This document shows, in pieces, positions 33,114-62,856 of a stretch of 64,000 bases of DNA (position 1 is its first letter; every line of letters begins with the position of its first letter). The position numbers and the translations under genes were made by a program. The notes beneath the pieces were generated by a model. The model ran no database searches and had not been told where the DNA came from. It saw only the letters and a program-made list of their open reading frames with translations. The DNA is taken from contig OZ020244.1 in assembly GCA_963971285.1 (NCBI GenBank), forward strand, positions 3,162,001 to 3,226,000, written 5' to 3'. This stretch comes from Astropecten irregularis (Eukaryota > Echinodermata > Asteroidea > Paxillosida > Astropectinidae).

Positions 33114-33118
33114 GAAAT

Positions 33119-36100
33119 CTAGATGGAACAGAGGGTAGGATACTGACTTTTATAAAAGTGGGTCTTGATTTCGATGCCTTGTAGAATCTCTTTGACCATG
33201 TCCACAACTTTGTCGATCTCCGCCTCGATCAGTCCTGCCTTCTTGTTCCAGACTTGGAGTATGTCCACGTCAAGGTTCCGTATACTCACACTCACGCCAC
33301 ATATCTCATCCTCTGCAAAATATATGGACCAAGGAAACAGGATTCATAATCATCTGAAGTGAGCACTGAGACATGGCATTGCTAGTGCTGTGCAAAATAG
33401 ATTAATTTGGTATTCGTTTACGGAATACAAAAAAAATAAGGTTACGTGTTATAAGATTTAAGCGCCTTTTTAATTGACAGCGCTAGCGGGCGGCGATCGT
33501 GAGTGTTCAGTGAAGAAGAAAAGTGCCTGAATAAAAGCAGTGTTGACAGACGGTATGGACATTAAGCTTGTTTGATATGACAATATTTATAAATATTGCA
33601 ATATTTTTTTCATATCGAAAATCGTATGGGGTCCCGGAAAGAATATTGAAATAATATCGGGAATATCGTGATATTCGTGATATAAAAAAATCAGAGTAGC
33701 ACATGAGCTTATTGAGCTACTTTTTGCACTTTTCGCGACGACCAAAACAAACAGATTATTGCAAATTTTGTAGCTGGTTGCGACGTTAAAAGCAGATTTC
33801 TTACCGCAAAATCTGCACTCTATGTGCACCTCAGTGAAACATGGCATTGCCACCACCTTCTACGTCGCGTTTGTCTGCTTGTTTGTCTGTTCTGTCAGGT
33901 GGTTGCTCACCTTAGTGAGACATGGCATTGCCACCACCTTCTACATTTGTCTGCTTGTTTGTCTGTTCTGTCAGGTGGTTGCTCACCTCAGTGAGACATG
34001 GCATTGCCACCACCTTCTACGTTTGTCTGCTTGTTTGTCTGTTCTGTCAGGTGGTTGCTCACCTCAGTCAGACATGGCATTGCCACCACCTTCTACGTTT
34101 GTCTGCTTGTTTTTCTGTTCTGTCAGGTGGTTGCTCACCTCAGTCAGACATGGCATTGCCACCACCTTCTACGTTTGTCTGCTTGTTTGTCTGTTGTCAG
34201 GTGGTTGCTCACCTCAGTCAGACATGGCATTGCCACCACCTTCTACGTTTGTCTGCTTGTTTGTCTGTTCTGTCAGGTGGTTGCTCACCTCAGTCAGACA
34301 TGGCATTGCCACCACCTTCTACGTTTGTCTGCTTGTTTGTCTGTTCTGTCAGGTGGTTGCTCACCTCAGTCAGACATGGCATTGCCACCACCTTCTACGT
34401 TTGTCTGCTTGTTTGTCTGTTCTGTCAGGTGGTTGCTCACCTCAGTCAGACATGGCATTGCCACCACCTTCTAGCTTTGTCTGCTTGTTTGTCTGTTCTG
34501 TCAGGTGGTTGCTCACCTCAGTCAGACATGGCATTGCTACCACCTTCTACGTTTGTCTGCTTGTTTGTCCGTTCTGTCAGGTGGTTGCTCACCTCAGTCA
34601 GACATGGCATTGCCACGTTTGTCTGCTTGTTTGTCTGTTCTGCCAGGTGGTTGCTCACCTCAGTGAGACATGGCATTGCCACCACCTTCTACGTTTGTCT
34701 GCTTGTTTGTCTGTTCTGTCAGGTGGTTGCTCACCTCAGTCAGACATGGCATTGCCACCACCTTCTACGTTTGTCTGCTTGTTTGTCTGTTCTGTCAGGT
34801 GGTTGCTCACCTCAGTCAGACATGGCATTGCCACCACCTTCTACGTTTGTCTGCTTGTTTGTCTGTTCTGTCAGGTGGTTGCTCACCTCAGTCAGACATG
34901 GCATTGCCACCACCTTCTACGTTTGTCTGCTTGTTTGTCTGTTCTGTCAGGTGGTTGCTCACCTCAGTCAGACATGGCATTGCCACCACCTTCTACGTTT
35001 GTCTGCTTGTTTGTCTGTTCTGTCAGGTGGTTGCTCACCTCAGTCAGACATGGCATTGCCACCACCTTCTAGCTTTGTCTGCTTGTTTGTCTGTTCTGTC
35101 AGGTGGTTGCTCACCTCAGTCAGACATGGCATTGCTACCACCTTCTACGTTTGTCTGCTTGTTTGTCCGTTCTGTCAGGTGGTTGCTCACCTCAGTCAGA
35201 CATGGCATTGCCACGTTTGTCTGCTTGTTTGTCTGTTCTGCCAGGTGGTTGCTCACCTCAGTGAGACATGGCATTGCCACCACCTTCTACGTTTATCTGC
35301 TTGTTTGTCTGTTCTGTCAGGTGGTTGCTCACCTCAGTCAGACATGGCATTGCCACCACCTTCTACGTTTGTCTGCTTGTTTGTCTGTTCTGTCAGGTGG
35401 TTGCTCACCTCAGTCAGACATGGCATTGCCACCACCTTCTACGTTTGTCTGCTTGTTTGTCTGTTCTGTCAGGTGGTTGCTCACCTCAGTCAGACATGGC
35501 ATTGCCACGTTTGTCTGCTTGTTTGTCTGTTTTGTCAGGTGGTTGCTCACCTCAGTGAGACATGGCATTGCCACATTTGTCTGCTTGTTTGTCTGTTCTG
35601 TCAGGTGGTTGCTCACCTCAGTCAGACATGGCATTTCCACGTTTGTCTGCTTGTTTGTCCTTTCTGTCAGGTGGTTGCTCACCTCAGTCAGACATGGCAT
35701 TGCCACGTTTGTCTGCTTGTTTGTCCGTTCTGTCAGGTGGTTGCTCACCTCAGTCAGACATGGGACAATGCCACGTTTGTCTGCTTGTTTGTCCGTTCTG
35801 TCAGGTGGTTGCTCACCTCAGTCAGACATGGCATTGCCACGTTTGTCTGCTTGTTTGTCTGTTCTGTCAAATGGTTGCTCACCTCGGTCAGACATGGCAT
35901 TGCCACGTTTGTCTGCTTGTTTGTCCGTTCTGTCAGGTGGTTGCTCACCTCAGTGAGACATGGGACAATGCCACGTTTGTCTGCTTGTTTGTCCGTTCTG
36001 TCAGGTGGTTGCTCACCTCAGTCAGACATGGCATTGCCACGTTTGTCTGCTTGTTTGTCTGTTTTGTCAGGTGGTTGCTCACCTCAGTGAGACATGGCAT

Positions 36101-39100
36101 TGCCACATTTGTCTGCTTGTTTGTCTGTTCTGTCAGGTGGTTGCTCACCTCAGTCAGACATGGCATTTCCACGTTTGTCTGCTTGTTTGTCCTTTCTGTC
36201 AGGTGGTTGCTCACCTCAGTCAGACATGGCATTGCCACGTTTGTCTGCTTGTTTGTCCGTTCTGTCAGGTGGTTGCTCACCTCAGTCAGACATGGGACAA
36301 TGCCACGTTTGTCTGCTTGTTTGTCCGTTCTGTCAGGTGGTTGCTCACCTCAGTCAGACATGGCATTGCCACGTTTGTCTGCTTGTTTGTCTGTTCTGTC
36401 AAATGGTTGCTCACCTCAGTCAGACATGGCATTGCCACGTTTGTCTGCTTGTTTGTCCGTTCTGTCAGGTGGTTGCTCACCTCAGTGAGACATGGCATTG
36501 CCATGTTTGTCTGCTTGTTTGACTGTTCTGTCAGGTGGTTGCTCACCTCAGTGAGACATGGCATTGCCACGTTTGTCTGCTTGTTTGTCTGTTCTGTCAG
36601 GTGGTTGCTCACCTCAGTCAGACATGGCATTGCCACGTTTGTCTGCTTGTTTGTCTGTTCTGTCAGGTGGTTGCTCACCTCAGTCAGACATGGCATATCC
36701 ACGTTTGTCTGCTTGTTTGTCCTTTCTGTCAGGTGGTTGCTCACCTCAGAGAGACATGACATTGTCAAGAGTCTCTAAAATCTTTTCCTTAATCCTAGTA
36801 CCTAATCAAGAATCTGCAAGATGGTTATGTCAATTACCTCTTTATCTTTTTTAACCTTGAGTGGACTTTAGCCCTGTTAAGAGTAACTGTCTATCAAATT
36901 GATTATTTAAGGGTCCCTGATTGTGGAATCGCAACCTGAATAGAAAGCTGCTTCAGTGGTTATGTAAAATTTGCAAACTTCTGGTTGGAAGAAAGGAAAC
37001 TGGCGTAGCCTTCCGGCTCATTTCAGCGGTATTATTATTGTCAACTTTCTACTTTTAACTTTCCAGGAAATATCACGCAAACAAATCCAGAAAGGTCATT
37101 TGGGCGGGTATAAAAAAACAACATTCAATTTTCAAGGAAACACCACACAAACAAATTCTTTCAAAGGTGAACAAATAAAAACTGACTGGAGCTGGACTTT
37201 TCAATGATTTAAAGGGTTGGTACAGAATTGGTAAGACAAAATACACTTCAAGATCACAGATCCACATAAAACTTGCACAGTATAATGGTGATGATAGGAG
37301 AAAACATCCCATGAAATGTTTTTGTCTTTAAATGCCATATTTGTTGAGAAATAAATGAAACTATTTTCCGATTGGAATAAATTGCTCGGAAGCGTTTTAT
37401 TCATTTGTTGAAATGTGTAACAGGTTTTCACTATTTTCTCGTGACCCAGATGGCTGTTTGACCTCAAACTTCTACAGGTTTGTCAGTTAAGGTATATGAT
37501 GGATAACATAATGTGCTTTCACTGTCAGCAACGGTTTTGTTGCAAAAACCAAATCTGTACCATCCCTTAAAAATTAATCCATGCAGTTTCCCTTGTGGTT
37601 ATTCAAATACCATCAGAAATGTGTTTTCTGTAATCCTCATAGTCTAAAACCCTTTATTATAAAGTTTAGTTAAGCTGGGGCTCCTAACAAGGGCAAAAAA
37701 TAAGGGTTTACAAAGTGCACTTGGAACTGTTGCCCAAACAGACAAGGGATGGTTAAGGGAAAGTACCGTAAATGTACCCAGACCTCCCGGTGAAAGGCTA
37801 ATAAGCATGGGGTCTGTCATATAACACCGATCACTTCAAAAGGCGATGGCATCTTTGATCTTTGAAAATGGATCAGTGACTCTGAAGGTAATTTTGTTTT
37901 TGTTATTTAAAGGTATAAAACATAATTGGTAAAGGTCACAGAACAGCACTCACACTTTGTCTGATCCAGCATGTATATGAAATGATAAACATGTCAACAT
38001 TTGAGCCCAATCAGAAATCTGGGTCATGAGAAAATAGCAAAAACTTTACTCAATTCTTCTTTATATAAAACATAAAGAATGGTTTTTGATCTTACCCCGA
38101 GATCATAACTGTTTTTGGTCTTTGTTTGACTAATTTCTGGATAAATACACTATTTCAGACGGAAATATTTTAACGGTATGTTTCTACCAGCACCATCTTC
38201 ATACCCTGAAAGTTCTACGTAAATCTGTGAACATTTCGGTTTGGGTATGTTACCAATCCTGTACGGTACCTTTAATTGGAGGGTCTACTAGCATGAAGCC
38301 TGTGCTTCAAGCGGGAAATGGATTGTCACGTACACCATCCGTTACATGAAAATTAATCCAACAGTCTTTATGTAATGTATAATTGAATAACTTCCCTACG
38401 GCATGAAATTACACACATGTGTGTATGGGAGGCAGCCGCAGTCACTTACTACATCTGTGTCCAAAATACTTCCTTATGGCTTGGAATTACACATGTGCCT
38501 ATGGAAGATTCAAGACAGCCACAGTCACTACAATAGACTCATTGAAGCCATAGTCCAAGCCCTACTTGCCGAGAACCCATGCTTAGTAGTCAGAAACCAA
38601 CATGATGTTACTATGTGATAGTATAATTGGGTGTGGAATCCAGGGTACAAGACATGAGCCCGCATCCATATGCAATGGCTATGGCATCAAGTTCCGCATA
38701 TACATGTATGTCTGGGAAAGCCACTAGCCAGTGGCTTTAGCAAATTCCCATTGACTTCATTGTTACAATAAGCCATAGCCAAGTGATATTGATAAAGCCT
38801 GAGTAGCCTAGCAGTCTGGAACCCATACTCGTTGCAACAGTCAAACACTAACTTGAACAAGCAGTGCACTGGCTACTTACCTGGTGAGAGGCAGTCGGAG
38901 AAGCGTTCTCCTATCGTTGCTAATAGTAATTCCTTCCATGCTCTTCCCTGGAAAAAAACAAATAATAATTTTTAATTATGAGCAGGGAGAAAGTTTGGAT
39001 TGAAGTGTTACGAGCTATTCAGCCTAACTGACTAAACCTCAAGGAAGGATATGACTAATATTCTTGTTCGGTTATAAATCTCCTTTTCATTCATCTACAG

Positions 39101-42100
39101 GTACTCTCTAATCCCTCCCTGCTTTTAGCATTCCACTTCTCCCTCTTGCCTTGCCTATCTTGATCTCCAATCCTCTCATTAACTCATTTGTTAATCCCCA
39201 ACCCCCAGTGCCACTCCTTCCCATCCTTTTGTAGTCTGTTACCATTGATCTTGCCTATCTGACCCCCGTTTGTCTAACTAATCTTACCTTCCCCCACTCT
39301 CCAACTACCCCCCTTCCCTTTGTCCATATCCTCTCATCCATTCATGTATGCTTCTTTCACTGGCATGTTCTTGTAGTTCATCATATAGAGGTTATTCACC
39401 GACGTCATAAAATCACGTGATTGGCCGTCAAGCTTTTCTATGTTGTCCATGGTTACCACACTGTACGTTGTGTGTGCACTGAAGCGTATTGTTTCGCGTG
39501 TGCAATCATTGTGCTTGACGGCCAATGACGTCACATAAATAACCTCTATAGCCTTTGAGAAAGATCCTGCTAGGATCGAAACACGTCAGGCCCTCCTAAC
39601 TCCAAGCATTTGATATATTTCAGGTCATTTTGGCTGATGAGCAGTTTGCAGCAGTTTATTACTTGTATTAATTTTAAATGAGTAAGGTAATGAAGAAAAT
39701 GAATTCTCCATTTCATTGACATCACAAATTGAAGGGGAAAAAAAGAGAGCCAAAACTGTAGACATTATGCAGAACATTTGGGTATTTCGCAACATTTATT
39801 TTCCATAAAGGGCTGCTTAATGAATCTTACCCCCGTTTCAGACAGGTGTTCCAGCGTCGCGCCGAACCAATTGAAAGGCAAGATATGAAACCCTAACCCC
39901 CTAGACATTTGTACTCAATACCTTTCTCAGCCTAACACACTCCAACAGCCTGGAGTGTCAGGTAATGTCCACTGTACTCAACCTGTTATACTCCAACAGA
40001 TTACTCTATAACAACGGTACACAGCTCATCAAGTTCCAACAGTTGCTTACTGTTGGAATTTGGCAGACTGTGTACATAAGGCCCTATGCAAAAACAAACA
40101 TCATTTACACATGGTATCAATCTTAGCAAATTCCAACAACTGTACCCTCCTCAGCCTAACAGATCCCAACAAAACATAATGTTGGAGTTTGAAGGGCCTG
40201 GGGGCGTTAGGGTTAAGTACATGGGAAGTTTGATGTCAGAAACAATTTGGAGCGACCAGGCGCACCTGATGCCAAAAGATCGACGGTCTGGGTCGTTCAG
40301 AACGGCGCTAGAGCGACATCGTTTTAGATGTCGCTCTAGTCATGAGCCGAACTCAATGTAAATGTATGTAAATTTATGCAAATAAGCAGTGACTTGCAGA
40401 CATATCCCACAACGCTAATGCACAGCGCTTTGATTTTCTTGGAAAGGCGCTTTATAAATGCTCGTTATTATTAATGCATACATACAAAACTTTTTGGCGT
40501 GAAAATAAGTACAAGACGCCTGCCGGCCATACATCATAGGGTGCACTTTTCAATAGACCTTTGCCCAGGAATACAACAAACAAAACAAATGATTTTGAAG
40601 GCAAAGTCAAAGATGGGGTAGACCTAATAGTAATAAAAAATTATGACAGCTACAATGCCAGTTCTGCTAACCGTGCGCCATTGAAAGCTCTCTATTTTCT
40701 CAATTCTCACCGTTTGTTCTTTAGGAATTTTGAACTTCCAATCCCCTCCACTTGCATTGCACGGATCCTCCCTAGAACAAAAGAAAATTCGATAAAGTCA
40801 TTGCACAAAAGACATTTGAAAGGTGAACAAAGAAAAATTGATTGGAGAGGGATTCGAACCAGCAACTTCCGGAATACTGTACCAGTGGCTCTACCAACTG
40901 AGCTCCCCTGCCCTGTTGGCAGTGTACCACACTGTTAGTCATCTTTGTTTGTTTGCAATTTTCTTCTCTCAAAAAATATTGCACGCTTTTAATACCTGTT
41001 TCCCTGGTCACCATGTCCTTCTTTGTTCTGATCCTCTCATCCATTTATGTGTCTCTTTACTAGCATGTTCTTGTCCTCTTGTCACTTAGCCTTTGAGAAA
41101 GATCCTGCTAGGATCGAAATGTCAGGCCCTCCTAACTATGACCATTTAGCCTTTGAGAAAGATCCTGCTAGGATCAAAACGTCAGGCCCTCCTAACTATG
41201 ACCATTTAGCCTTTGAGAAAGATCATGCTAGGATCAAAATATCAGGCCCTCCTAACTCTGACCATTTAGCCTTTGAGAAAGATCATGCTAGGATCGAAAC
41301 GTCAGGCCCTCCTAACTCTGACCATTTAGCCTTTGAGAAAGATCCTGCTAGGATCGAAACGTCAGGCCCTCCTAACTCTGACCATTTAGCCTTTGAGAAA
41401 GATCATGCTAGGATCGAAACGTCAGGCCCTCCTAACTCTGACCATTTAGCCTTTGAGAAAGATCCTGCTAGGATCAAAACCTCAGGCCCTCCTAACTATG
41501 ACCATTTAGCCTTTGAGACAGAGATCATGCTAGGATCAAAACGTCAGGCCCTCCTAACATTGACCATTTAGCCTTTGACAAAGATCCTGCTAGGATCAAA
41601 ACATCAGGCCATCCTTACTCTGACCATTTAGCTTTTGAGACAGATCCTACTAGGATCAAAACATCAGGTCCTCCTACCTCTGACCATTTAGCTTTTGAGA
41701 CAGATCATGCTACGATCGAAACGTATGCACATCAGGGACTGGGGCTGGCCAGGGGTCGATTTCATTAAGTCCTTCGAACAATCGTAACTCAAGCATGTCA
41801 AATTACGAAGGATAACCCATCGTATCCTATGTAGGGCAGGGCTGCATCACAAGTCCTACGATTGATAGTAAGTTACGATGAGTTTGGTAAAATCGACCCC
41901 TGGCTTTATATTGATTGACCCCGACCAGTATTAAAGTTTCTCTCTCTTAGGTAGTTGCAGAGCTTACCACATAGGCTTGATGTCATCTTTCATCAGGTGG
42001 TAGCTGAAACGATATCCTAGCTTGTCAACATCTGGGATGTTGTTGTATACAGCCCAGAAGCTCTGCAAACAAAAAGGCAACACACCGCATCACAAAAGGT

Positions 42101-45013
42101 TAACCCTAAGATAATTTTCTCAGAAAGATGTCTTTCTGTGATATCATGGAAAGACATCTTTCAAAGAACGTCTTGGGAGTGGCTTTTCCAATATAATTTT
42201 CTAAATGTTAATGCGGAAATGCAGCTCTGGTCATTTTAAGCTTACTGACAGGCAATTTTCGTAAACAAATCTGGATAAGAAGTCATACTCCTTAAACCAA
42301 TTTCTTTTTAAAACTGCGTTCAGAATAAGGAAAGAGGTGATCAAAGTCACTGGATGTCGTGTTGCTGGTAGCGACGTTTTGGCTGCTGGTACTGCTAGCC
42401 TTCATCAGGCAAGTGAAGAACTGGATGCTGCGGTGTCCGTCATATACTGCTGGTCCACGTGCATGTTCACCGTACTGTGTTCAGCGGACGCCGAATGGGT
42501 CACTATAGTTGACATTATACGGTTGACGTCTTCGGCGTGGTTTCGGTTTCCTCTAGTGGTTCCATCTGGTACGTGGTAGTGGTTGTGGTGTTGAAAAGTA
42601 GGTAGCCAGAATCCAGGGATGTCGATACCACTGTCCCGGTTGACACTGAAGCTACGCCGAAGACACCCCACAGCCAACCGCAGAGTGACCCGTTCGACGT
42701 CCACTGGAGTGACCTTTTCGACATCTGCAGGACACGGTACAGTGAATGCAGATGCAGAATAGGATAACGTTCACACCGCAGCATCCATCCTTTGGCTACC
42801 TGATGAAGGCTAGCAGTTCCAGCAGCCGAAACATCGCTACCAGCAACACGACATCGCGTGACTTTGATCACCTTTTTTCCTTATCTGTATCTACCACGAT
42901 GAAGATCCCTTTCCTTTCTAATGTTTAAAATGTTTTGTGAAATGGGAGCCAATCCTCGAGCTCTTCTTAAGGTGGGATTATCTTCAATTGAGGATGATGT
43001 ATGGTCAATAGGTCACATACCTCCACAGTGGATACTTTGTAGATGTTCTGCAGATTGGCTTCCACCTGAGCAGCTGTAGAGCCTGGTATTGATCTATTCA
43101 TACAAAGAAACAGTACAAGTAATTCTAAATTAATGGGTACTGAAGATAAACACACTTAGAGAGAGATACTCCAATACTTGTTCGGTCCAGCAAACGAAGA
43201 GCCGAGCCAGGCCTGTGCCTTCCGGCCTGTAATCCTTGTCTTGTCAGCCCTGAACTTCAATACAATAGAGCTGCTTAAAATCAATCAAGCCTGGCTTCTG
43301 GATACTGTCCATGATCAATGTGGACTTAATAATGATCTGTCAATCAGGTTTATGCCAACTACGATCCAGGACACAGCAGGGGCTTGAAGCTGATAGTTCA
43401 AGGCTGGGGATTATAGACGCCAAAGATCCCAGGGAAAGCCCAGGCCTGTCCTGGCTTTTCAGTGGTTGGGCCTGGAGTCTTTGGCTTCTATAATCCCTGG
43501 CCTTGAACTATCAACTTCAAGTTCAAGCCCCTGCTGTGTCCATCCTGGATAACAATTGGCATAAACCTGATAGAAAGAATGAGACCACACTGATCATGGA
43601 CAGTATCAAAAAGTCAGGCTTGAATGATTTTGAGCAGCTCTATTGTGATGTATTGTTCAAGGGCCCAGGCCAGTTCAGGCTTTTCAATGACTTGGTCTGA
43701 CTTACATACTGTACTATTAACAATGATTAAAGTTTCTCTCCCTTATTTCAAAGTTATTCTTTGTAAGTAAAACCTTATCAACAATGAAACCTTGACAAGG
43801 ATGGTGTATGAAGGCTACCTGCATTTTTGTTTGAAAATAAATACAAACAACAATCCAAAAACACGACTGATAGGCCTTTTCACATGATCAAAATTATCTG
43901 GGTAGTACACGGGTCCAACCCTTGTACAAGTGACTGAGGAGTCTGAAAAGTGTACCAGTCTGATTAACAACCATGACACTACGGCTGTTTCACGTCAGAG
44001 TAAAATGAATAAGCATGCACAATAAATTCAACAGATGCACAAAACAGCTGTTGGTTATTGCCATCTGATTTATCAGACTGGTGCTTTTTCAAACTACTTT
44101 GGTGAAACCTTGGAGTAGTCTGGGATTCAACCATTTTATTCTCTTGTCGGATTCCCCTTCAAAGATCCTGCATACTTAAATGATGCGCCATACAGTACAT
44201 GTACATGTACAATATCAACCAGATAATGAAAGTTTGGACATTGTGCATGATCCTAAAGCGAAGCCCCCTGTCTTTTTTTGTTGTAATTTCTGGGGAATGG
44301 CAATTTTTTCACAAAATAGCAAGTTGACCATAGTTTATCAAGTAGGAATCGGCATTGTTCTTTCAAACACTATTTTGCCATTCCCTTTCTCCAATTGGCC
44401 AATCCTGCAAAATAATATTTATTTACAGAAAGAAGGGCGGCATGACATATTGCGAATTGGCCAATCAGAAGAATGACAGTGCTAGCAAAATACACACTTT
44501 CCAAGTTCCATAATACTTGTAAAATTTCAGCTTGTTAAACTTCTTTTGACGGCATTTCCATACAACTGTGACAGGCCAGGGTGCCCAGGTTCCAGAGTAA
44601 CCTGGGGTGCGTTCCACTCCAGCTAACTAAGCGCACGGCGCACAATATAAAGCAATAGAGTGGACGGTTCTACCGTCAGTGTTCTGTAATGTTATCTAAA
44701 TGTACTTCATGCATTCATGCAGGATGATTTGTGGGGAAAGTTCGGTGCCGGAAAAAATATACCGGCTAAATTAACAAGCAACACTTAACGTAGGCCAAAC
44801 CACCGAGCAGCGCAAATCAATTTTGACGTTAGTTTTTATCGTTAATTTATGACCACACCTGTCCAGCCAAAACGTCCAAGGGGTGTTGAGGGGGACGCCT
44901 GTGGTCTCCAGCTCGCCAGTCGGGGGAATGGAGTCGAATTGGACATCTTCTGAGCCGCTAGGAATCCCTCCAAGATCCGAGTCCGCTAGCTGACCGACCT
45001 CCAAAGCCGCCAT
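33119..45013 (-). CDS. EIF4E3: Eukaryotic translation initiation factor 4E type 3 (class III cap-binding protein), complete, 6 exons
   Basis: Exons: 45013-44859, 43093-43021, 42062-41968, 40771-40711, 38947-38881 and 33312-33119. All introns are GT-AG with compatible phases; the exons sum to 645 nt, that is 214 residues plus TAG (human EIF4E3 has 224). Key stretches are GVPLNTPWTFWLDR (human GVPLHSSWTFWLDR), STAAQVEANLQNIYKV, SFWAVYNNIPDV, GGDWKFKIPKEQ, WKELLLATIGERFSDC and GVSVSIR...LQVWN. Trp108-Glu109 matches the cap-stacking Trp102-Glu103 of mouse eIF4E. The Trp56 position is Val62, as expected of class III, which binds the m7G cap with only one aromatic side. The product should bind mRNA caps in cytoplasm or nucleus and may compete with eIF4E. 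The start at 45013 (GAACATGG context) was chosen over an in-frame ATG at 45037. The gene is divergent from SMIM30, 1.2 kb away. The last intron (33313-38880) carries a 2.9-kb minisatellite. Confidence 0.95.
33838..36770. repeat. 76/66-bp minisatellite in the last intron of EIF4E3
   Basis: About 40 tandem units. The long unit is 76 bp (contains CCACCACCTTCTACG); a 66-bp version lacks ACCACCTTCT and dominates after about 35480. Because 76 is not a multiple of three and no forward frame has a stop, the plus strand stays open in all frames, giving apparent proteins up to 722 aa. The 66-bp part gives 22-residue repeats on the minus strand. Higher-order structure: a roughly 598-bp block repeats (markers CTAGCTTT at 34471/35069 and ATTGCTACC at 34533/35131), and a 532-bp block repeats (TGGGACAATG at 35761/36293). 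The array lies in the intron between 33313 and 38880. Confidence 0.93.
37207..37570. mobile_element. MITE-A-like relative with GGGTTGGTACAGAATTGG ends
   Basis: Ends TTTAAAGGGTTGGTACAGAA and ACCAAATCTGTACCATCCCT are inverted. Same length and layout as MITE-A (half, central GGAATAAATTGCTCGG, half), and its right half resembles MITE-B. In EIF4E3's last intron. Confidence 0.7.
37907..38275. mobile_element. MITE-B/MITE-A hybrid
   Basis: Left half is MITE-B type (AATTGGTAAAGGTCACAGAA, GAGAAAATAGCAAAAAC), right half is MITE-A type (CTGGATAAATACACTATTTC, TACCAGCACCATCTTCATAC). The two join at the central GATCTTACCCCGAGATC hairpin. In EIF4E3's last intron. Confidence 0.75.
39384..39550. mobile_element. 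Foldback element with CRE-like words, EIF4E3 intron 4
   Basis: TATAGAGGTTATTCACCGAC and TTGGCCGTCAAGC pair with GCTTGACGGCCAA and TAAATAACCTCTATA. It interrupts a dispersed copy of the 41085-type repeat (GGCATGTTCTTG before, GCCTTTGAGAAAGATCC after). Flanking TA/TA. Confidence 0.82.
40309..40340. repeat. Perfect hairpin in EIF4E3 intron 4
   Basis: CTAGAGCGACATC and GATGTCGCTCTAG are separated by six bases. The surroundings (39890-40200) also hold several CCAACAG/CTGTTGG inverted words, so this is probably part of an old foldback element. Confidence 0.5.
40820..40962 (-). mobile_element. tRNA-derived SINE next to EIF4E3 exon 4
   Basis: A second copy of the 32703-32840 family: minus-strand AGCTCAGTTGGTAGAGCC and GGTTCGAATCC, with the tail CAATTTTTCTTTGTTCACC. 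It sits about 50 bp upstream of the 40771 splice acceptor. Fragments of the same family lie at 23648-23698 and 37160-37200. Confidence 0.7.
41085..41725. repeat. 60-bp tandem array (GATCCTGCTAGGATCGAAACGTC unit)
   Basis: About eleven units. Those from 41088 to 41515 are exactly 60 bp and differ at a few sites (ACTATG/ACTCTG; CCTGC/CATGC). Each holds the imperfect palindrome GATCCTGCTAGGATC and the word AACGTC. The 60-bp period gives a meaningless 20-residue repeat ORF. Single units of the same motif lie near 2385, 6705, 39555, 50945 (inverted) and 53830/53930. The array lies about 30 bp downstream of a dispersed-repeat head (CTCTCATCCATTTATGTGT). Confidence 0.92.
41752..41901. mobile_element. 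MITE-E copy in EIF4E3 intron 3
   Basis: GGGGTCGATTTCATTAAGTC to TTTGGTAAAATCGACCCC. It lies 66 bp from exon 3 (41968) and directly after the 60-bp array. Confidence 0.82.
42325..42894. mobile_element. Foldback MITE, CTGATGAAGGCTAGCAG / GAAACATCG ends
   Basis: Inverted arms of about 95 bp (AAGGAAAGAGGTGATCAAAG ... CTTCATCAGGC; inverse CTGATGAAGGCTAGCAGTTC ... GTGACTTTGATCACC) around a second internal inverted pair (CGTCTTCGGCGTGG / CTACGCCGAAGACA). In EIF4E3 intron 2. Confidence 0.87.
43240..43672. mobile_element. Long foldback element in EIF4E3 intron 1
   Basis: Arms CAATAGAGCTGCTTAAAATC ... GATACTGTCCATGATCA and inverse, continuing inward to AGCAGGGGCTTGAAG / CTTCAAGTTCAAGCCCCTGC, with a central AGGCCTGTCCTGG region. 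A fragment of an arm lies at 3667-3740 in ROCO intron 3. Confidence 0.83.
43673..44858. other. EIF4E3 intron 1, remainder
   Basis: 43870-44105 contains inverted TCTGAAAAGTGTACCAGTCT / AGACTGGTGCTTTTTCAAAC arms (a further diverged foldback), and 44390-44465 carries TTGGCCAATC twice. No exon. Confidence 0.4.
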
Positions 45014-45047
45014 GTTCAGCTCGGTGTCAGTGTGCAATAATCACTGT

Positions 45048-45075: not shown

Positions 45076-45082
45076 AGACACA

Positions 45083-46665: not shown

Positions 46666-46671
46666 AATAAA
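46666..46671 (+). terminator. Poly(A) signal of SMIM30
   Basis: AATAAA, 263 bases past the SMIM30 stop and followed by an A/T-rich stretch. It is the first canonical hexamer I see downstream of the gene. Confidence 0.55.
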
Positions 46672-51735: not shown

Positions 51736-51796
51736 TTATAGGTAAAATGGCAACATTTGTCATTACTTTTGCATTGATTGACTTGATAAAAAAATA

Positions 51797-52069: not shown

Positions 52070-52457
52070 GAGGGTCCAAAACCTTTGATAAAGTTTCGAG
52101 GAAAAGTTGTTTCAATGACATTCAATGCGTTTTCCTTCCGCCTATACGAATTCTGTGCATACCAGATGTGCCTATAGGGGCCTTAAAATCTGCAGGAAAC
52201 ACCTGACGTATTGTGGTTAGGGAATAGGGAGGGCATATGTTTGTGTTAGAAAAGGACACGCAAGTTAGTGCAAAGTATTGATTTGAGATATCATTAAACA
52301 AAATAAGGAACAAAGAGAAAATCAATGTCCCTTATGCTCCTTATCTTTGTTAGACAGGATTGCCTTGGTATAGCGGAAATTATGCATTGACTGATGTATG
52401 TAATCTAATTATACAGGAACAATAAACGACCACGTGTTTAGATGGATAATCGACTGC

Positions 52458-52573
52458 TATGCGTTCGTTTAGCGTCCACGCGTCGACACCAGTCAACCTC
52501 TCGCATGTTTTGCACAACTATGCATGGCAATTCCCACGTCAGGGCTGCCCAGTGGAAGCTTAACGAACGCACC
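52458..52573. mobile_element. Small foldback with GCGTTCGTTTAG ends, second copy
   Basis: ATGCGTTCGTTTAGCG to CTTAACGAACGCACC. It sits 94 bp upstream of the orphan first-exon candidate. Confidence 0.65.
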
Positions 52574-52666
52574 CTATGCTGTTATGCTATATTAAGGATT
52601 CCTTTGTTTAAACGGATGTGAACTTTCATGTATGATTTCTGCTGCTGTTATTACTACTCGGGCGTG

Positions 52667-52712
52667 ATGATGGCGACATCGGGGATTTATGTCTCTAATC
52701 AATCAATTTCAG
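52667..52712 (+). CDS. Orphan candidate first coding exon
   Basis: ATGATGGCG in a strong start context opens a 15-codon stretch (MMATSGIYVSNQSIS) that ends in CAG and a strong donor GTAAGG. No partner exon is visible downstream. Joining to the acceptor before 61351 (SREB gene) hits a stop after about 20 codons, so it could be a short upstream ORF of that gene, the start of a gene lying in the gap or beyond the window, or chance. Confidence 0.22.
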
Positions 52713-53820
52713 GTAAGGAAATTCATGTTCTAGGAATCAGAATGTTTAGACTGCGGTTAGTGAAAAACGTACGTGGGCATACAACATGAATCATTAATGA
52801 GATGTTTAAAGGGTCTCTACAATAGGAATATTCTGGCTGGAACATGTGCCAAAAAGCAACTGTTTTATGGAGCCTGTGATTTTACCCACTTCCTCACACT
52901 GTTTCATGGTTAACAACAGTTTTTTTGATTTGTATGCTAATTAGAATTTCCATATTCATGAGCAAAACTGTGATGTCATCTGGGTAACTGAGAGCAGTAA
53001 CCCAATGTATTTGTGCACGAAAAGTTGGGGTTGTTTTATAGGTTTCCTGACAGACATTTTCCTCCTCAATGGGCTTCATTGTGCCGAATATGTTCCTCTC
53101 ACTCAACTGGTGGTGTTTTTGTTTTGGCCAAATGGGGCAAGTTTGCCTCTTCATTGTTTATGTTTTTTCATTATACTTTTGCTGTTGGTTCCCCACATTA
53201 TAATGCATGAAAATCCCCCATTTTGCAATTGCAAAGCCATTCAAATGAAAACCAAATGCAAGTTTGAAACCAAAATAAGACTTGCCATTAATTCATTACC
53301 TGTCACTATAATTATTCTCTGTATGAAGGCAATAAAATAACCTGACTGAAAAAGTACTGCAGGAACCCTTTAATGTGAATAGGGCGTGTGGTAGGCCTAT
53401 CCGTGCGTGAAGTAAACAATTCAGTTCGAATGACGCAAAGTTTCATCATGATCAAAAATCATCGTCACCATATGCTCGTATGTCCATAAATATAACTGTT
53501 TACTTTTATATGATGTCGTAATATGAGACAAACATATGGCTGTTACATTTCCTGTGGGCGACTGTTTCCTCCAGCTTCTATTATTGTTAATGCGAAACAG
53601 AGAGGCGGAAAAAAATACAATGAAGCAACAATGAACAAACAATTAAATGATTAATGCCAGTACATACATCCATCGACAGAGACAATAGTCATCGTTTCTA
53701 AAAATACAACTTTCATGAAAACAAAACAACAGCCACGCCCCCACAAACAAACATATTCCCAATGCAAATAAAGTATCTTTCAAAGGGAAAGCAAAGAATA
53801 TGATACATATTTATATTGAT
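52713..53820. other. No gene seen
   Basis: Two overlapping plus-strand ORFs at 53005-53340 are hydrophobic and A/T-driven without family signatures. If the orphan exon at 52667 is real, its partner is not obvious here. Confidence 0.35.
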
Positions 53821-53950
53821 TTATGCTTAGAGTTAGGAGGACCTGACGCGTTTCGATCCTAGGAGGATCTTTTATCCATTCCTTTGTGTTTCAGGCTTTC
53901 GCTTGCATGTTCTTGTCCTCTTGTCATTCAGCCTTTTAAAACGATCCTGT

Positions 53951-54331
53951 AAGGTACAGTATACAGGATTGGTAACATATACTCAAACAGAGTAATCAGA
54001 CATGTTCACAGATTTACCTATAACTTTCAGGATATGGAGATAGTGTTGGTAGAAACATACCGTTAAAATATTTCCGCCTGAAATGGTGTATTTGTCCAGA
54101 AATTAGTCAAACTAAGACCGAAAACAGTTTTGATCTCGGGGTAAGATCAAAACCATTCTTTATGTTGTGTAAAAAACATTGAGTTGGGTTTTCGCTATTT
54201 TCTCGTGACTCAGATGTCAGATTGAGCTCAAATTTTCACAGGTTTATTATTTCATGTAGGCCTACATGTTTGATTAGACAATGTGTGACTGCTGTCCTGT
54301 GACCTTTACCAATCATGCATTATTCCTTTAA
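53951..54331. mobile_element. MITE-A/MITE-B hybrid
   Basis: Mirror image of 37907-38275: left half MITE-A-like (TAGAAACATACCGTTAAAAT), right half MITE-B-like (TTTTCGCTATTTTCTCGTGA ... GACCTTTACCAATCATGCAT), joined at GATCTCGGGGTAAGATC. Confidence 0.75.
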
Positions 54332-54815
54332 GAAAGACTGACATCAAAGCTGTATGTATACGGATTCAATAGCTAAAATGGCAAACCCGCATGCCCCAAG
54401 GTACCCTCGTGTTAGCAAGTTCACCTAGTCCTGCTATGTCTGCAGTGCCACTCCAATAACTAGCCACGCCACTTATTGTAATCACTCCAACAAAACGGGA
54501 CACACAAAATGCAAATTATTTATCAGGCGAACATAATATTCAGGATGAGGGAAAATGGCCGTTCGCTAAGAGGAAATACTATCTGTCAGTTCGAATTACC
54601 CGGTGAAATAGCTCGCTGTTCTCTGGCGAACACGTCCTCAAATGGATTGGGAGAACTACTTGTGATGCAAGAGACTATGCTGAGTCTCTGGGCTATACCG
54701 ATGTATTGTTATTAGTCATACTTATCATAGGAATGTGGATATAATAGACATACATGTTTACGAAGAAAAATATACACTAAACCACACATGCTGCATTGTA
54801 ACCACAACAAATAAC

Positions 54816-55105
54816 TTAAAGGTATACTATCATACTTTGGTATAGCATGATACCCAAACAGAAATCACACATTTACGTATAACAATACAGGGTATAAAGA
54901 TGGTAGAAATTTTTTCTGCCTTAAAATGCTGTATTTATCCAGAAAAAGAGTAAAACCAAAGACCGAAAACAGTTTTCAAAATTCATGTGGGAGTAAATTT
55001 GAAAATACCGTGAGCGTTTTTCACTGTTTTCTCAAACAGTGGGCCCCGTATCATTATGGGACTGGACATTCAAAGATGACTGTTAGTATTGTATCTGTCT
55101 TGATA
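54816..55105. mobile_element. MITE-A copy, right end lost
   Basis: TTAAAGGTATACTATCATAC at the left and TCACTGTTTTCTCAAACAGT inside; the match fades after CTTGATATTCTTGACCATGA. Confidence 0.7.
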
Positions 55106-55437
55106 TTCTTGACCATGAATGAACCGAAATTGCTTTCGACTTTTTCATTGATTTTCATTCAAAGTAAACATCTTTCGAGCATGTTTTGCCGGCCAGTTCA
55201 AGCATCTGTGAGGGGTTTCGAGTAGACTATCAGCTTTTAATGTTTAATGAAATCATGCTCGGGCAGTGCGTGGGTAATTCCATGCAATTTGCATAAACAA
55301 GGAACAAACTCGGAAATCCAGCTGGAAACTTACCAATTAGCCACTGAAATAAAATTATACACTAAAACTCCGCAAACACTGAAACAGCGAAGCCTCAGTT
55401 AAATAGATGACATGACGTCAACGGCTAAGCGAGACTG

Positions 55438-56010
55438 ATTTTCAAATATGTGCGTTTTGGCTGAATTTGATACTTAAATAGAACTGAACGGACCAATTTC
55501 TTAGAGCTGCTTAGCACAAAAATTCGCTAAGCATGACATTTGTCGTAGTAAAACCAGGATTAACAACAAAAGGTCCGTGTGTTGTATATTGCTTGCAATT
55601 GTTCTTTGGCTGGAATTTTCAATGGTAGTTTGTTTTATCGGCCAAGCTATTGTTGTGCTAAGCAATTTTTTTGTGCTAAGCAGCTCTATGAAATTGGCCC
55701 AAGGTCCTAAATTTCCTTACAGACGTTGTTTCATGTACCTTTTTACGCTTTGTTCATCTGGATATAGCAGAAATACGGCCGTAATAATCCCCTCCTCCGA
55801 ATCCTTCATGCTTTCGAAATGCTACTAAATCGTTCGGACGAACGATCCTTTTAAAAGAAACTAAATCTTGATTTCCTTGAAAAACCCAGCATCTGATGAA
55901 CGAAGATTTCCCATGGTGACTGTTTGCACTGTTTACGAACTGTTGAGTCCATTTGCTGTCTCAAACTCAATAATTCTTTTCGGAGGCTTTACAAATCATG
56001 TACGCTGTGA
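55438..56010. mobile_element. MITE-C copy carrying an inserted MITE-D
   Basis: MITE-C halves (GTGCGTTTTGGCTGAATTTG ... and TTTCCTTACAGACGTTGTTT to TCATGTACGCTGTGAGTTTA) are split at 55496-55702 by a MITE-D copy (GACCAATTTCTTAGAGCTGC to GCTCTATGAAATTGGCCC). This is the reverse of the nesting at 9902. Confidence 0.78.
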
Positions 56011-57457
56011 GTTTAATTTGGAAGCCAAGGAAATTAAAAAATATCAAATTTAGTTCTCTGTGCGTCTGGCTAAATCATGCCCAGACATACATAATCAGGG
56101 AAAACCTAAGACGAAACAACCTGCTATTGTACTGAACTTTAATTTGCGGACAATGAACCGATCGAGGCCGCCGTGTAATTCAATCCATAGCCACAGTCTA
56201 CCGCAGGACTTCTATCAAATTATATCAAAATAATAGTGGAATAACCACACCGCACAAGGTCAACACTTGTTCATGCACTGGAACAAAGCACATGTGGGAA
56301 AGAGAAAAAACTACGCAGTGTTTTTCTTTTTTTTATGATGGAGGCGGCCATTGTAAAGCTGTTATCCGGCTGGTGAAGCTGCATGATCATGAAATAATAA
56401 TAACACAGTGGAGGATGTGTGATGTGAGGCGCATGCGCGGTGCTGACCCCAAAAGGATGAGTGTTTTTTCATTATACTGCATCACAGTCGCCAATCTAGC
56501 ACGCGTGTACTGTACTGTAGGGACACACGTATACGATGTAGGAGCTGCACTTGCTCTATGCTTTATACACGCACACTATACAGCCGTTCCATCTCACTAC
56601 ACAGTGCGTGTATCTACGCAACCATCATCTGCATGCATCTCCCAATAGCAGATGAGGAATAATAACATAACGGATCTCTTCCAAAAAACTGCAGTTTTTC
56701 TGTCTGATCATAAAACACAGCTGTTGGATTTATCAAGCACGTATGGGACTCAACTCCAAGGTATGTTAAAATACACAACGCTGATTTCATCATGCAATGG
56801 TATATGTAGGATGCGAGATATTTGGTGATGTTGATGATTCAATTTTCTGTGTTCACGTGAATGGATGGATGCGAAGGATCCCATACGCAGTGAGCAATGT
56901 CTAGTGAGCTTCTTTCGGTTTCTGGTAAGGTATCGTGTTGAGGGCATCCCCATGTTTTTGTGTAGATGGAGAATGCATACATAGTCTCCACCACAAGCTA
57001 AAGGAAGACCGCAGCAGGCAGACTGCATAGCGTGTGCACAGCGACTTATTATTACAACAAACACATATAAACCGTTCGCACGGCTGATTTTTATGTGCAA
57101 CCAAAAAGCATTATCATCCAAAACAGAGATGGTATATACAATGCAATGACGTCAATCCGTTAACACAATCCAATATCTTATTGTGAATTCTACTGGTAGA
57201 GAGATATTATTATTGCTACAAGGTTAGTCTGTGCATGGTGATTTTGTGTATAAACATCGTAACTGAGTGGAGGGTATATCATGGCCTGTGAGAACAGTGA
57301 ACAAAGGGAGCGAGACGGCGCAGGGGTCTTTGTTGTGATTTGAACTCGGGCAGGCGAGCGGTCATGTTTGACGGTAGGCAGCTGGCCTACTGCTCACATC
57401 ACAGCACGAATCATGGTTTCATGCGTGAGCTTTCTCTAAAAATGTTCCAAAAATAAA
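56011..57457. other. No gene seen
   Basis: Mixed composition and no element recognised. The ORFs at 56292-56648 and 56750-57121 have no recognisable domain. Confidence 0.35.
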
Positions 57458-57957
57458 ATCCTCACAAAAGTTCTGCAACTCAATTTTGAGGTGTAATACA
57501 TTTTTTTATTGCTCCATCATCATACATACAAATGGTATCATTAGAAAGCGTGATTGTTCATCTTTACAATGATGTGTCTTTTCTTATGCTGATGTAATCA
57601 AGGAATGTGTATAGCCTTGATAAATATGCATCAATGTCAAACATAAAAAGTTGGAAAATTCGTGGTTTTCATAAGTGAATTCCCAATCGTTTTCAGAATG
57701 GACTGCTTTTGAATGTTGTTGATGCGCTGATGCGTAAAAGTCCACACATTATTATTCAAAATGCATTTTGCAACATTTCACTTTTGACTTTGCCTTATAA
57801 TCAGACGAAATGCACATTCCATGATTACATAATCACAAAAATGACACATCATTGTAAAGAGGAATAATGAAGCTTTCCAATGATACCAGTTTCAACGTTC
57901 ACAGATCAGTAACAAAAAAGATATCATCCCTCAAACTTGAGTTTTGTGAGGGGATTT
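57458..57957. mobile_element. Foldback element, CCTCACAAAA ends
   Basis: ATCCTCACAAAAGTTCTGCA with GGTATCATTAGAAAGC and CTTTACAATGATGTGTC; inverse order GACACATCATTGTAAAG, GCTTTCCAATGATACC, GTTTTGTGAGGGGAT at the right. Diverged arms. Confidence 0.65.
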
Positions 57958-58438
57958 ACATCGCTGTATTTCTTTCCATGGCAGGAAAATAATTTAATTC
58001 TTTGCTGCGTCATTGATATGAAATAGATGATTTATGTAATGTAGGCCTACTCATAGAGATGAATACGGTATAGACAAACTATACCAAGAATGAAAGTGAT
58101 ATCATGTTTATTTTGATAGGGATGATAGAAACCTATATGGTTTCTATGGTTGTGTCAATAATGATTTTGATGTTGGCTATGAAAGTAGTGATCATATGAT
58201 TTTCATGTGGCAATGATAGTGGTGATTAACGTGCATAGTGACTGCATGTGGTGATTATGATTATGATTATGGTGATTATGTTATTGGGGTAAATAGGGGA
58301 TGGTGATTACGATGGTAATGATGTGAAGCCATGGATATTGATCATCAATTTGATGGTGGGGAACTTGGTGAATGTTTGGAGGAAGTAAAGGAAATTATAA
58401 TAATGACGAAAAGGTGATAGAAAACGATAATAATTAGA
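57958..58438. other. GTGAT-rich simple sequence
   Basis: Irregular runs of GATGATAG, GTGATTATG and GATTATGATTATGATTATGG at 58085-58440; no gene. Confidence 0.5.
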
Positions 58439-58446
58439 GATTTCAG

Positions 58447-58657
58447 CAGTGGCGTCACCAGACTTTTGAGTCTGGGGGGGGGGGGGGGCACAAGGGGAGC
58501 ACTAGCAATTGTTGGGGGGGGGGGGCAAACTTTTTATATATTATATATTTTTTCACCAACCCAAATCTCAAATGGGGGGGCACGAGGGGGGCACGAGGTT
58601 TTCCAGGGGGGGGGGGGCACGTGCCCCCCCCCTGGCCCCCCCTTGGCGACGCCACTG
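58447..58657. mobile_element. hAT-type MITE (CAGTGGCGTC ends) with perfect 8-bp target duplication
   Basis: CAGTGGCGTCACCAGACTTT to TTGGCGACGCCACTG, 211 bp. GATTTCAG is exactly duplicated at 58439-58446 and 58658-58665. The interior carries long G-runs that pair with the C-runs near the right end. CAGTGGCGTC is a widespread animal hAT terminus. Confidence 0.93.
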
Positions 58658-58791
58658 GATTTCAGGCTGAAAAGGAAATCAAGGATTCCATAAGTTGGCA
58701 GGAGTTTTCCCAAATACAATTTTTCTGGTAAAAATCCATCAATAGGGGGTTATATACACGAAAAATAGTTTTGTAGTTACTTGTCAGACCT

Positions 58792-59020
58792 TGGGCTAAT
58801 TTCATAAAATCTGCTTAAGCACCAAAAACTTTGGTAAATAAAATCAGTATGCCAGCCAAAACTCCTTGTGAATGTTATGCTCAGCAAACAATGGCCGAAT
58901 ACAAGTCAAAAGTATAGTAAACATCACATGACAATTTGGTTGGTAATCCTGTTTGATCAAGGAATACTTTTGATGCTTAAAAAAATTTATGCTTAGGCAG
59001 CTCTATGAAATTGGCCCCTG
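58792..59020. mobile_element. MITE-D copy
   Basis: GGGCTAATTTCATAAAATCT to AGCTCTATGAAATTGGCCCC. The interior CAAACAATGGCCGAATACAA is typical. Confidence 0.8.
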
Positions 59021-61350
59021 GAAAGTTTTTTTTCAGAAATGCACACATTGCTTTATGAATGCGCCTGGGACAGAATGTACGTGATAACCTGACTTGTAAA
59101 GTCATCCCACCGCTGCCACCAAAAACTCTTACATTTTGTCCATTATATCCTCCACACTATAACCTTCAACTCAGAAAATTCGGATAAATACAGGCAGCAT
59201 TTGATAGAATGATACAATACTGTAGCTATGTTGGCAGTGGTATTCACTAGTTCTTCACAATACAATGGATGTTGTGTGCATGTCGGCGCTTGATAGCATA
59301 AAGGGAGAATACTGACAGTACAGATTTCAACGGTGTCACCAATAACAACATAACCTTATGTTAGCACGCCCTTTATGATTTTCCTAATAACATAGACAAA
59401 TCCTCAGACCTGGAAGGGGGAGGGATGGATGATCCTGTATCTAGGTTACTATTGGTCGTACTCGTACGTTAATATACGTTTGTGCACATATTACATTATT
59501 TATACAAAATACAAAATGAAATTCTGGGGGTGTACCGTACCCCCCGTGATCTATGCTCCTGGCTTTTCTACTGGTAAGGGTTACTGCAGTGCAAGCCGTG
59601 CCGAGTGTATGGGTGATATCAGTTGCTATCCTGTTGAGTGGGACCCCCAAAAAGCTGCTTAGCAATTTTCGTATGTTAAGCAAACATAAGTACATAAACA
59701 ATTTTCGTATTGTGGATCGGTTTGCGGTAACACCATGTAATAATCGTTCGTACTTCGCACTTCTACATGTGTATATCGTTCGCACTTCTCGCAATTAATG
59801 TTCGTATTGTTAAGCAGAAATCGGACGAGAACCATACAAGTCAAATATATAATATTATTGCATGGCATTTGTGGTTGGTGACCTATGTTTGTTAAGCCTA
59901 AAACGTTTTTGCGCTTACCACGACTCGCGGATAAATACAAATTTGTGGCCATCTATGGTTAGCAGGGAATATTGGTAAGCATAAAATAATGTGGACCACT
60001 CGCAAGCAATTAAAATGACATGGCCGAATTGCGTACGGTATACCAGGTAGTTTTGTACACTTGAAAAGACGCACATGTTCAAGCTTAGCAACAACAAATG
60101 AGTTTTGTTCATACATACAAACAGCCCATGCATGCAAATGCAAAAGTCTGCATCTTGTCAAACATTTCGCAGTCACGACGTTAGAGGGCGCACTTTTAAG
60201 ACACGTAACCCCCATCTGTGACAGTCGTATATTTGTACAGTCTTTGAGTTTTGTAGTTCTGCCCCATTTGTGATATTATTTCAACGGACGGTAACATCAG
60301 GCGCGCTGCGCTGGTGCTTAAGACGAAATCGATTTTGATTTCATAGATGACGTGACTCACCCTGCATGATGTTTCATCGGAAAGTAAACACCGGACAAAA
60401 AAATCAAAGCTGGGTTGGTTTTACCAATTATTTTGAAGGGTAGAAAAACAACCCAAAAGGGAGCATATGGTTACCTTGAAGTACGGTGCGTAAAGCACGC
60501 GGAATCGATCAATGTGCAAATGTTGTTGCAAAGGTTTCTGGCATTAGCGAGGAGCTCCTTATTTTGCATCTCCGTTTTTGTGTGTGCATGTTTATAGTGG
60601 AAGCGATTGATCTGTTTTTGATGAGTGGAGGACAAGATGGGAGTGTGTGGGTTGGATTCGGCGGTCTGTTGCCCAGAAGGGGGGCTGGTGCGAGTGGTGG
60701 GCCTGACTTGTCGGTACGCTGATCGGCAGAGACCGTATTGAATTCTGTTGATTCGGAAAGAGAGAAGACCCGTAGCATGTTGTATTTGACCTGAGTGAAT
60801 ACAACGTGGTATTAATGTGCATGCAGGAGCAAGTGCTGGCCGCAGGGAACGGCAGGTTTCTAAGAGAGTGACATGGTCGTGACGTACGTAATCAGTCAGG
60901 ACCACATAGAAGAACGGATAAGCTGGATTTGAAGGGAGTCAATTTCAGGCATTTGCTCCAAACGCTCGAATTCGGTGCGGTGAGACATTTTAATCAGATG
61001 CTGGCAGTAGACGTATGTGATGCATGGCACAAGCTGCGATTAGGTTTTGGTAATGTAGAATGTAGATGACTGTATCGTAGGCCCCTGTGCTTGCTTTATA
61101 TTGTGACACAGACAGCTAGTAGAGATGAAGCCACTAGCACTAGCGCAGTGATGATATTTAGTAAGCAAATGACACCCTCGTCTGAGTTTTGTCAGGGTAC
61201 GGTGACACAACACACACGGCCAAGTCACTATTAGTAACACACTCCAGCAAATGTTCAGAGAGGTATTTTCCTTTATCAGTGGATACAAACTGACAGAGCA
61301 TGTGATATTAATTTACTTAATGTAATACTCTGGGTCTTCTCTTTTTATAG
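59021..61350. other. Upstream of the SREB gene; no coding exon recognised
   Basis: The SREB promoter and 5' UTR exon(s) are expected in or before this stretch. 59640-59960 shows repeated TTCGTATTGT/TTAAGCA words typical of a decayed element. Both-strand ORFs at 60415-60905 lack family signatures. Confidence 0.35.
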
Positions 61351-61668
61351 ATCAAGGGGATCGATCTGCGAGCATGGATTCTACGTTGTTGTTTCACGTG
61401 CAGTAGGAGCAGCATCTCTTGTTGGTGACTGTGTGTTGGTTCGTCAGGGACTGAGGCCGCATGGGATGCAGGATGCGGCTGTTGCATCCCCCTAGGAGTG
61501 CGTACAGGGTGACCGCCCAGCACGGCGCGTGATTCCTCCCTCAAGGTTGAAAGAGACCGGCGTAGCCCTGGCATTCACATGCCGTATATCTCGGCCAGGT
61601 TTCGTGCGCCAGTACGCCTGCCTTCGGATATAAGCAGCAAGCCTGCGTTGCCCACTGTGTCCTACAGT

Positions 61669-62856
61669 ATGTCGACCCCGCTGGATCTGGGCCTCGGAGG
61701 GGTCGTCAATTCCACCCCGGACGATACGACGACCGCTGCGGTGCCGACCAGAGCACACGGCGTGGACACCGGGGACGGCACCGAGGGCGAACTCGCCGAT
61801 GACCACGGCCCAAGGGTGCTGTGGTGCGGCTCCCTCATTCTCGTCATCATTCTGAGTGTGATAGGCAACGGTATACTATCCGTCGTGGTGTTCGGTAACT
61901 CCAGACTCCGTCGCCCGTCCTACTTCTTCTTGTTCAACTGCGCCCTGGCAGACTTCTTCCGCTCCGTGCTGTGTTTCCCCTTCGTGGTCTCGGCCGTGGT
62001 CTCGCGAGAGTGGGTATACAGCAACGCCCTCTGTGAGATCTTAGCCTTCTTCAATGTGTACCTGACCTATGGGGTTCTATACACTCTATTCCTGATCAGT
62101 TTGGAACGATACGTCGTTCTGCGGTTCCACAGATTCCATCGGCAGAAGCTTAAAGGACCGGCCTGCCTGTTGCTCATGCTAGCATCCTGGGCATTGGCCG
62201 TCTCCATGGCTTTCCCGCCAGTGTTTAACCCACGAACCTACTCCTTCATTGCCAACGAGAACCAGTGTACGTTCAAGCACAAGGAGTACAAGTCCAACGA
62301 GACCTTGTGCTTCCTCCTCTTCTTCGTGGCCGTCATCGCATTCACGCACTTCGCCTACTTCAGGGTGTTCCTCTTCATGCGAGCACACCGCAAGATGAGA
62401 CCTATGCAATTCGTGCCGGCTGTGTCCAACAACTGGACCTTCTACGGGCCTGGTTCCACCGGCCAGGCCGCGGCCAACTGGTTCCTGGGCTACAGACAAG
62501 GACCCACCCCACCGCCTCTCATTGGACTCGCTCCACCAGCTAACGGTAACAGCACATCCCTGTCCAAATCGGACTTTGAGAGGGAGGAGAAGTTCAGCAA
62601 GTTATCCCTGACCATCACGATGTCTTTCAGCATACTCTGGTTGCCCTACACCATCCACTGCTTCTGGCAGGTGTTTCAACCAACCAATCCGCTGCCTCCT
62701 AGCTACGTCTCTATAGCAACGTGGATGACTTTCTTCCAATCCTGCATCAATCCCATCCTATGTTTCGTGGTCAGTAAGGAGTTTCGCCAGATCGCTCTGC
62801 AGCACGTCTTCGGCGCGTCGGCATTTCAGCAAGACGGTCACAACGTGCAGTTGTGA
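61669..62856 (+). CDS. SREB: SREB-family orphan class A GPCR (single pre-duplication GPR27/GPR85/GPR173 type)
   Basis: An intronless reading frame with seven membrane segments. The frame opens at 61579, but the ATG at 61669 has A at -3 and leaves 395 residues, closer to the 370-375 of vertebrate SREBs. In numbering from 61579: Asn97 (VIGN), Asp125 (LAD), Cys152-Cys230 disulphide pair, ERY 176-178, Trp204, WLPY 354-357 and NPILC 391-395. The last is the SREB form of the NPxxY motif (NPxxC). The third loop carries the family hallmark, RKMRPMQFVPAVSNNWTF followed by GPGSTGQAAANW and GPTPPPLIG, nearly the same as human (RKMKPVQFVAAVSQNWTF). N-glycosylation sites lie at Asn44 and Asn240. SREBs are brain-expressed plasma-membrane receptors without an agreed ligand. 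A splice acceptor (TTTTTATAG) just before 61351 suggests a spliced 5' UTR. Confidence 0.95.
   Translation: MSTPLDLGLGGVVNSTPDDTTTAAVPTRAHGVDTGDGTEGELADDHGPRVLWCGSLILVIILSVIGNGILSVVVFGNSRLRRPSYFFLFNCALADFFRSVLCFPFVVSAVVSREWVYSNALCEILAFFNVYLTYGVLYTLFLISLERYVVLRFHRFHRQKLKGPACLLLMLASWALAVSMAFPPVFNPRTYSFIANENQCTFKHKEYKSNETLCFLLFFVAVIAFTHFAYFRVFLFMRAHRKMRPMQFVPAVSNNWTFYGPGSTGQAAANWFLGYRQGPTPPPLIGLAPPANGNSTSLSKSDFEREEKFSKLSLTITMSFSILWLPYTIHCFWQVFQPTNPLPPSYVSIATWMTFFQSCINPILCFVVSKEFRQIALQHVFGASAFQQDGHNVQL

Follow-up and report, generated by a model that had tools for sequence, protein, structure and literature searches.

Linkage of EIF4E3, SMIM30 and an SREB receptor gene in Astropecten irregularis and a possible ancestral neighbourhood split after genome duplication

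The analysed window, which is the whole stretch of 64,000 nucleotides of Astropecten irregularis DNA, carries EIF4E3 on the minus strand and SMIM30 and one SREB receptor gene on the plus strand, all within 30.2 kb. The gene models, Pfam matches, structure matches and receptor motifs confirm this arrangement, which a preliminary description had reported as three genes within 30 kb. The span given there does hold the three genes, but its start at 33119 leaves out the last coding exon of EIF4E3 (32661-32618). The further proposal that EIF4E3, SMIM30 and SREB formed an ancestral neighbourhood, which vertebrates divided once their genomes had been duplicated, is partly supported by the comparisons described below.

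EIF4E3 and SMIM30 in the window

The coding sequence of EIF4E3 is complete in a joined model of seven minus-strand exons (45013..32618), which have GT..AG borders and compatible phases and encode 219 residues. The exons are located at 45013-44859, 43093-43021, 42062-41968, 40771-40711, 38947-38881, 33312-33148 and 32661-32618, with the stop codon included in the last one. The open reading frame covering exon 1 alone gave no family match in Pfam, whereas the joined model matches the IF4E family with 143.6 bits. The top solved-structure match of the model is 4b6u, an EIF4E3 (228.8 bits), followed by 5me5, an eIF4E (106.4 bits), and the best EIF4E2 reaches 102.5 bits. Judged by these alignments, the model is nearer to EIF4E3 than to EIF4E or EIF4E2. 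We take class III eIF4E proteins to be defined by the loss of the second cap-stacking tryptophan, which is replaced by Cys in mammals. At the aligned column 5me5 has Trp and 4b6u has Cys, and the protein described here carries Val; the tryptophan is thus lost here too, but in favour of Val and not of the mammalian Cys.

Several repeated sequences are found in the introns of EIF4E3. In the fifth intron, units of 66-76 bp are repeated in tandem over 2.9 kb (33868-36764), and the long open reading frames within this array arise because it is open in several frames. A Pfam match to a spore surface protein apparently falls in the same array (33.9-36.8 kb) and was taken as low complexity. Another intron holds a tRNA-like sequence (32719-32792) that scores 31.7 bits with the Rfam tRNA model and in which ARAGORN finds no tRNA. 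A related stretch with 76 per cent identity is located in an EIF4E3 intron at about 40804-40948, and from their sequences the two look like a tRNA-derived SINE. In addition, one 60-bp unit family forms two far-apart arrays at 41086-41724 and 29345-29514, with a related stretch at 2320-2428.

The SMIM30 open reading frame (46230-46403, plus strand) encodes 57 residues and was identified by both Pfam and a tblastn comparison with the human SMIM30 sequence. Pfam assigns it to DUF4730, presumably the SMIM30 family, with 64.6 bits where the cut-off is 27, and 29 of the 47 residues aligned with the human protein are identical (63.2 bits). The 19-residue hydropathy means exceed 1.5 across residues 1-50. 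Human SMIM30 is described as a protein of 59 residues with two predicted helices, which lowers cytosolic calcium in human cells, apparently via SERCA (PMC10158777). The SMIM30 passages of that paper contain no link between the calcium effect and SREB. According to the preliminary description, the window connects an ER microprotein with a brain receptor; this stands as a statement about linkage, and no functional tie was found. SMIM30 and EIF4E3 are arranged head to head with their start codons 1217 bp apart, and the interval between them (45014..46229), a possible shared promoter region of the two genes, holds one dispersed repeat copy (45770-45940).

No Pfam domain was detected in six frames of the gap between SMIM30 and SREB (46404..61400), which bears out the earlier remark that nothing recognisable lies between the genes to the extent that the scan can see, as it is blind to genes with short exons. 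In the control scans, the frame over SMIM30 returned DUF4730 and the frame over EIF4E3 returned no IF4E match; because the short EIF4E3 exons were missed, multi-exon genes may be hidden from six-frame scans. The six-frame scan covered 1-29890 and 46404-61400, and within 29891-46403 the scan was confined to the gene models and part of one minus-strand frame (31600-46590). The six frames of 1-29890 also contained no Pfam domain, with the same blindness to short-exon genes. As far as these scans see, EIF4E3, SMIM30 and SREB, each with a complete coding sequence, adjoin one another.

Several long open reading frames (477, 180 and 143 residues) are located on the minus strand at 2461-7240 and look like exons of one gene. 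Three open reading frames of this region had no Pfam match at the cut-off, with one match below it (E 0.15), and the longest, of 477 residues, had no solved-structure match. On reading, the gene gives the impression of a COR-like (Roco) protein, for which we make no claim. An element roughly 370 bp long is dispersed over 16 merged places in the 64 kb, the query copy at 8241-8617 included; the others comprise 3091-3453, 5923-6270, 9046-9421 and 12 more places up to 54816-55120, among them the copy that separates EIF4E3 and SMIM30 (45770-45940). The element is probably a non-autonomous transposable element.

The SREB receptor

The receptor gene is an intronless open reading frame of 425 residues (61579-62856, plus strand), which was assigned to the SREB family (GPR27/GPR85/GPR173) by Pfam, a tree and sequence motifs. 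The Pfam family 7tm_1 matches it with 141 bits, as a rhodopsin-type seven-helix receptor. The best solved-structure matches are dopamine D4 receptors, and no SREB is found among the best 60 of the 216 PDB matches. Its identity with the human sequences is 37.0 per cent for GPR85, 37.2 per cent for GPR173 and 32.7 per cent for GPR27, and with segments of three monoamine receptors it is 21 to 25 per cent. In the third-loop block (RKM to GP.PP), 30, 29 and 30 of 42 residues are identical to human GPR85, GPR173 and GPR27. Helix 7 carries NPILC, with NPxxC in all three human SREBs and NPxxY in all three monoamine receptors. Helix 3 carries ERY, where the three human SREBs have TRY and the three monoamine receptors have DRY or DRF; at the level of sequence, ERY instead of TRY would fit a relative outside the vertebrate SREB trio.

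In a maximum-likelihood tree of seven sequences, three of them partial, with monoamine receptors as the outgroup, human GPR27, GPR85 and GPR173 form a clade that excludes the receptor, with support of 99.4/99 (SH-aLRT/ultrafast bootstrap). In this tree the receptor does not join any one of the human SREBs, a grouping that would have spoken against the preliminary description. The receptor is the only sequence sampled besides the human trio and the outgroup, and on this thin sampling the position outside the human trio is what should be expected of an unduplicated SREB. Searches for relatives in genome_contigs and viral_contigs, which do not include an animal genome collection, returned 40 and 1 peptide-pattern stretches, respectively, with none confirmed.

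Single SREBs have been reported in cephalochordates, ambulacrarians, ecdysozoans and lophotrochozoans by Yanez-Guerra and colleagues (2022; PMC9004410). That paper gives one SREB in invertebrate bilaterians and three in vertebrates, the latter read as products of two duplications, and contradicts the statement that SREBs are absent outside vertebrates (PMC8187511). The receptor itself is therefore not new. It resembles the published invertebrate SREBs in being a single SREB apart from the vertebrate trio, whereas the passages of PMC9004410 treat sequence and presence, not neighbours.

Vertebrate regions and a probable pre-duplication block

Two human regions resemble different parts of the arrangement in the window. 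At human 3p13 (FOXP1-EIF4E3-GPR27-PROK2), EIF4E3 is a neighbour of an SREB, as it is here, and the two human genes presumably have the same relative orientation as EIF4E3 (minus) and SREB (plus) in the window. In the human region GPR85-SMIM30-PPP1R3A-FOXP2, which we take to be band 7q31, SMIM30 likewise adjoins SREB and lies there on its FOXP side. Human SMIM30 is presumably divergent from GPR85, whereas SMIM30 and SREB are in tandem here, with the strand of SMIM30 relative to SREB reversed.

The human neighbours named in the preliminary description, EIF4E3 with GPR27 near FOXP1 and SMIM30 with GPR85 near FOXP2, are found in print. A 3p13-14 deletion covers FOXP1, EIF4E3, GPR27, PROK2, RYBP and SHQ1 (PMC5651901), mouse Gpr27 is directly flanked by Eif4e3 and Prok2 (PMC7101378), and a linkage interval, whose list we took as map order, contains BMT2, GPR85, SMIM30, PPP1R3A, FOXP2, MDFIC and TFEC (PMC6834745). 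SMIM30, which stands between EIF4E3 and SREB in the window, is absent from the gene list printed in the available passages of PMC5651901, and EIF4E3 is absent from that of PMC6834745. In sheep, SMIM30 and GPR85 are located inside one 300-kb interval (PMC10137859). Fish sreb3a is flanked by foxp3b and suv39h1, which places an SREB beside a FOXP gene with EIF4E3 and SMIM30 unnamed in the passages available, and one hagfish region weakly matched the flanks of teleost sreb1 and sreb2 alike (PMC8187511).

The preliminary description proposed a search beyond the contig for FOXP, PROK2 and other genes of the two human regions; inside the 64-kb window, the queries and domain scans gave no convincing match to such genes. 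Human queries gave no match in the window to the forkhead domain (FOXP) or to the MITF bHLHZ domain, and PROK2 gave two alignments with E values of 0.55 and 0.75, which we took as chance. The window differs from human 3p13 in showing neither a FOXP match nor a convincing PROK2 match.

In both human regions FOXP is found on that side of SREB which also holds EIF4E3 or SMIM30, and an order FOXP-EIF4E3-SMIM30-SREB would therefore yield both of them by loss. Because this one order fits both regions, they would be explained most economically by a single block that predates the duplications, and the window carries the last three genes of the series in that order. On this reading the EIF4E3-SMIM30-SREB neighbourhood would be older than both genome duplications of vertebrates. 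Among the vertebrate duplicates, one would have retained EIF4E3 beside GPR27 after losing SMIM30, and another would have retained SMIM30 beside GPR85 after losing EIF4E3. We regard common descent of the block with such reciprocal losses as probable. The human neighbours, the position of the receptor outside the human trio, the order fitting both regions and the two published hints from fish and hagfish argue for this part of the preliminary description, while the single genome, the small tree, the lack of a FOXP or MITF match or a convincing PROK2 match in the window and the presumed difference in the strand of SMIM30 weigh against it. At least one inversion would be needed, since SMIM30 and SREB are in tandem here and presumably divergent in human. 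The collinear map predicts a FOXP gene beyond the low-coordinate end of the window, past position 1.

Alternatives and meaning of the linkage

An old block may also have been kept together by regulatory constraint, with EIF4E3 and SMIM30 as bystanders within a regulatory domain that serves SREB or a neighbouring FOXP gene and with breaks selected against. This possibility, which we entertain tentatively, adds a cause to the pre-duplication block and is compatible with it. The 15 kb gap beside SREB, free of Pfam domains, is in line with such a domain, as is the start of mammalian Eif4e3 transcripts within the Gpr27 exon (PMC7101378), but the gap contains copies of dispersed repeats, and the separation of human SMIM30 from EIF4E3 indicates that the trio is separable. 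The CpG observed/expected ratio is 0.89 over the SREB exon and 0.79 over the EIF4E3-SMIM30 interval (44859-46403), against 0.54 for the window; it is a weak measure, because many other 500-bp bins of the window reach 0.8 or more. The linkage of the three genes is established here, and constraint on it is a hypothesis.

A fuller version appears unlikely. It would place a bilaterian-old block under shared regulation, with EIF4E3 starting in or near SREB since before vertebrates, SMIM30 inside the resulting long unit, and the block divided by vertebrates between two duplicates. An antisense first exon of EIF4E3 within the SREB exon was considered and set aside: the exon has 6 donor-like sites in 1.28 kb, compared with a background of 4.8 per kb, at a threshold of 5 that five of the six EIF4E3 control donors pass and one, at 4.51, does not. 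An antisense start of EIF4E3 is unsupported, because the donor-like sites over the SREB exon are at background density, which also speaks against the regulatory constraint considered above.

Alternatively, a bidirectional promoter could bind EIF4E3 and SMIM30 together with SREB as a passive neighbour, as the head-to-head start codons might suggest. We consider this improbable: the pair is split in human, with SMIM30 by GPR85 and EIF4E3 by GPR27 (PMC5651901, PMC6834745), and the interval between the two genes holds the dispersed repeat copy mentioned above. A lineage-specific rearrangement that joined the three genes, with the likeness to two human pairs arising by chance, would draw on the fact that one such genome only has been seen and on the presumably differing strand of SMIM30, but is very improbable and no serious rival, because a random order of 25,000 genes would place two out of a set of eight human neighbour genes no more than three genes away from a single SREB with a probability of P ~ 2e-6, the gene number and the neighbourhood sizes being assumed.

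In conclusion, the probable pre-duplication block is a neat but fairly ordinary conserved gene neighbourhood. Among the matches listed, no paper describing the EIF4E3-SMIM30-SREB block was found in the open-licence literature as far as its passages were available, and published catalogues of metazoan microsynteny may already list the three genes together. Humans keep two pairs on different chromosomes, and the window keeps all three genes together. The window, in which EIF4E3 and SMIM30 both lie to the same side of its one SREB, offers a definite map of the proposed ancestral order, FOXP-EIF4E3-SMIM30-SREB. Deletion of Gpr27 has a known side effect on Eif4e3 (PMC7101378), and this effect, should the linkage be of such an age, may go back to an ancient configuration of these genes.
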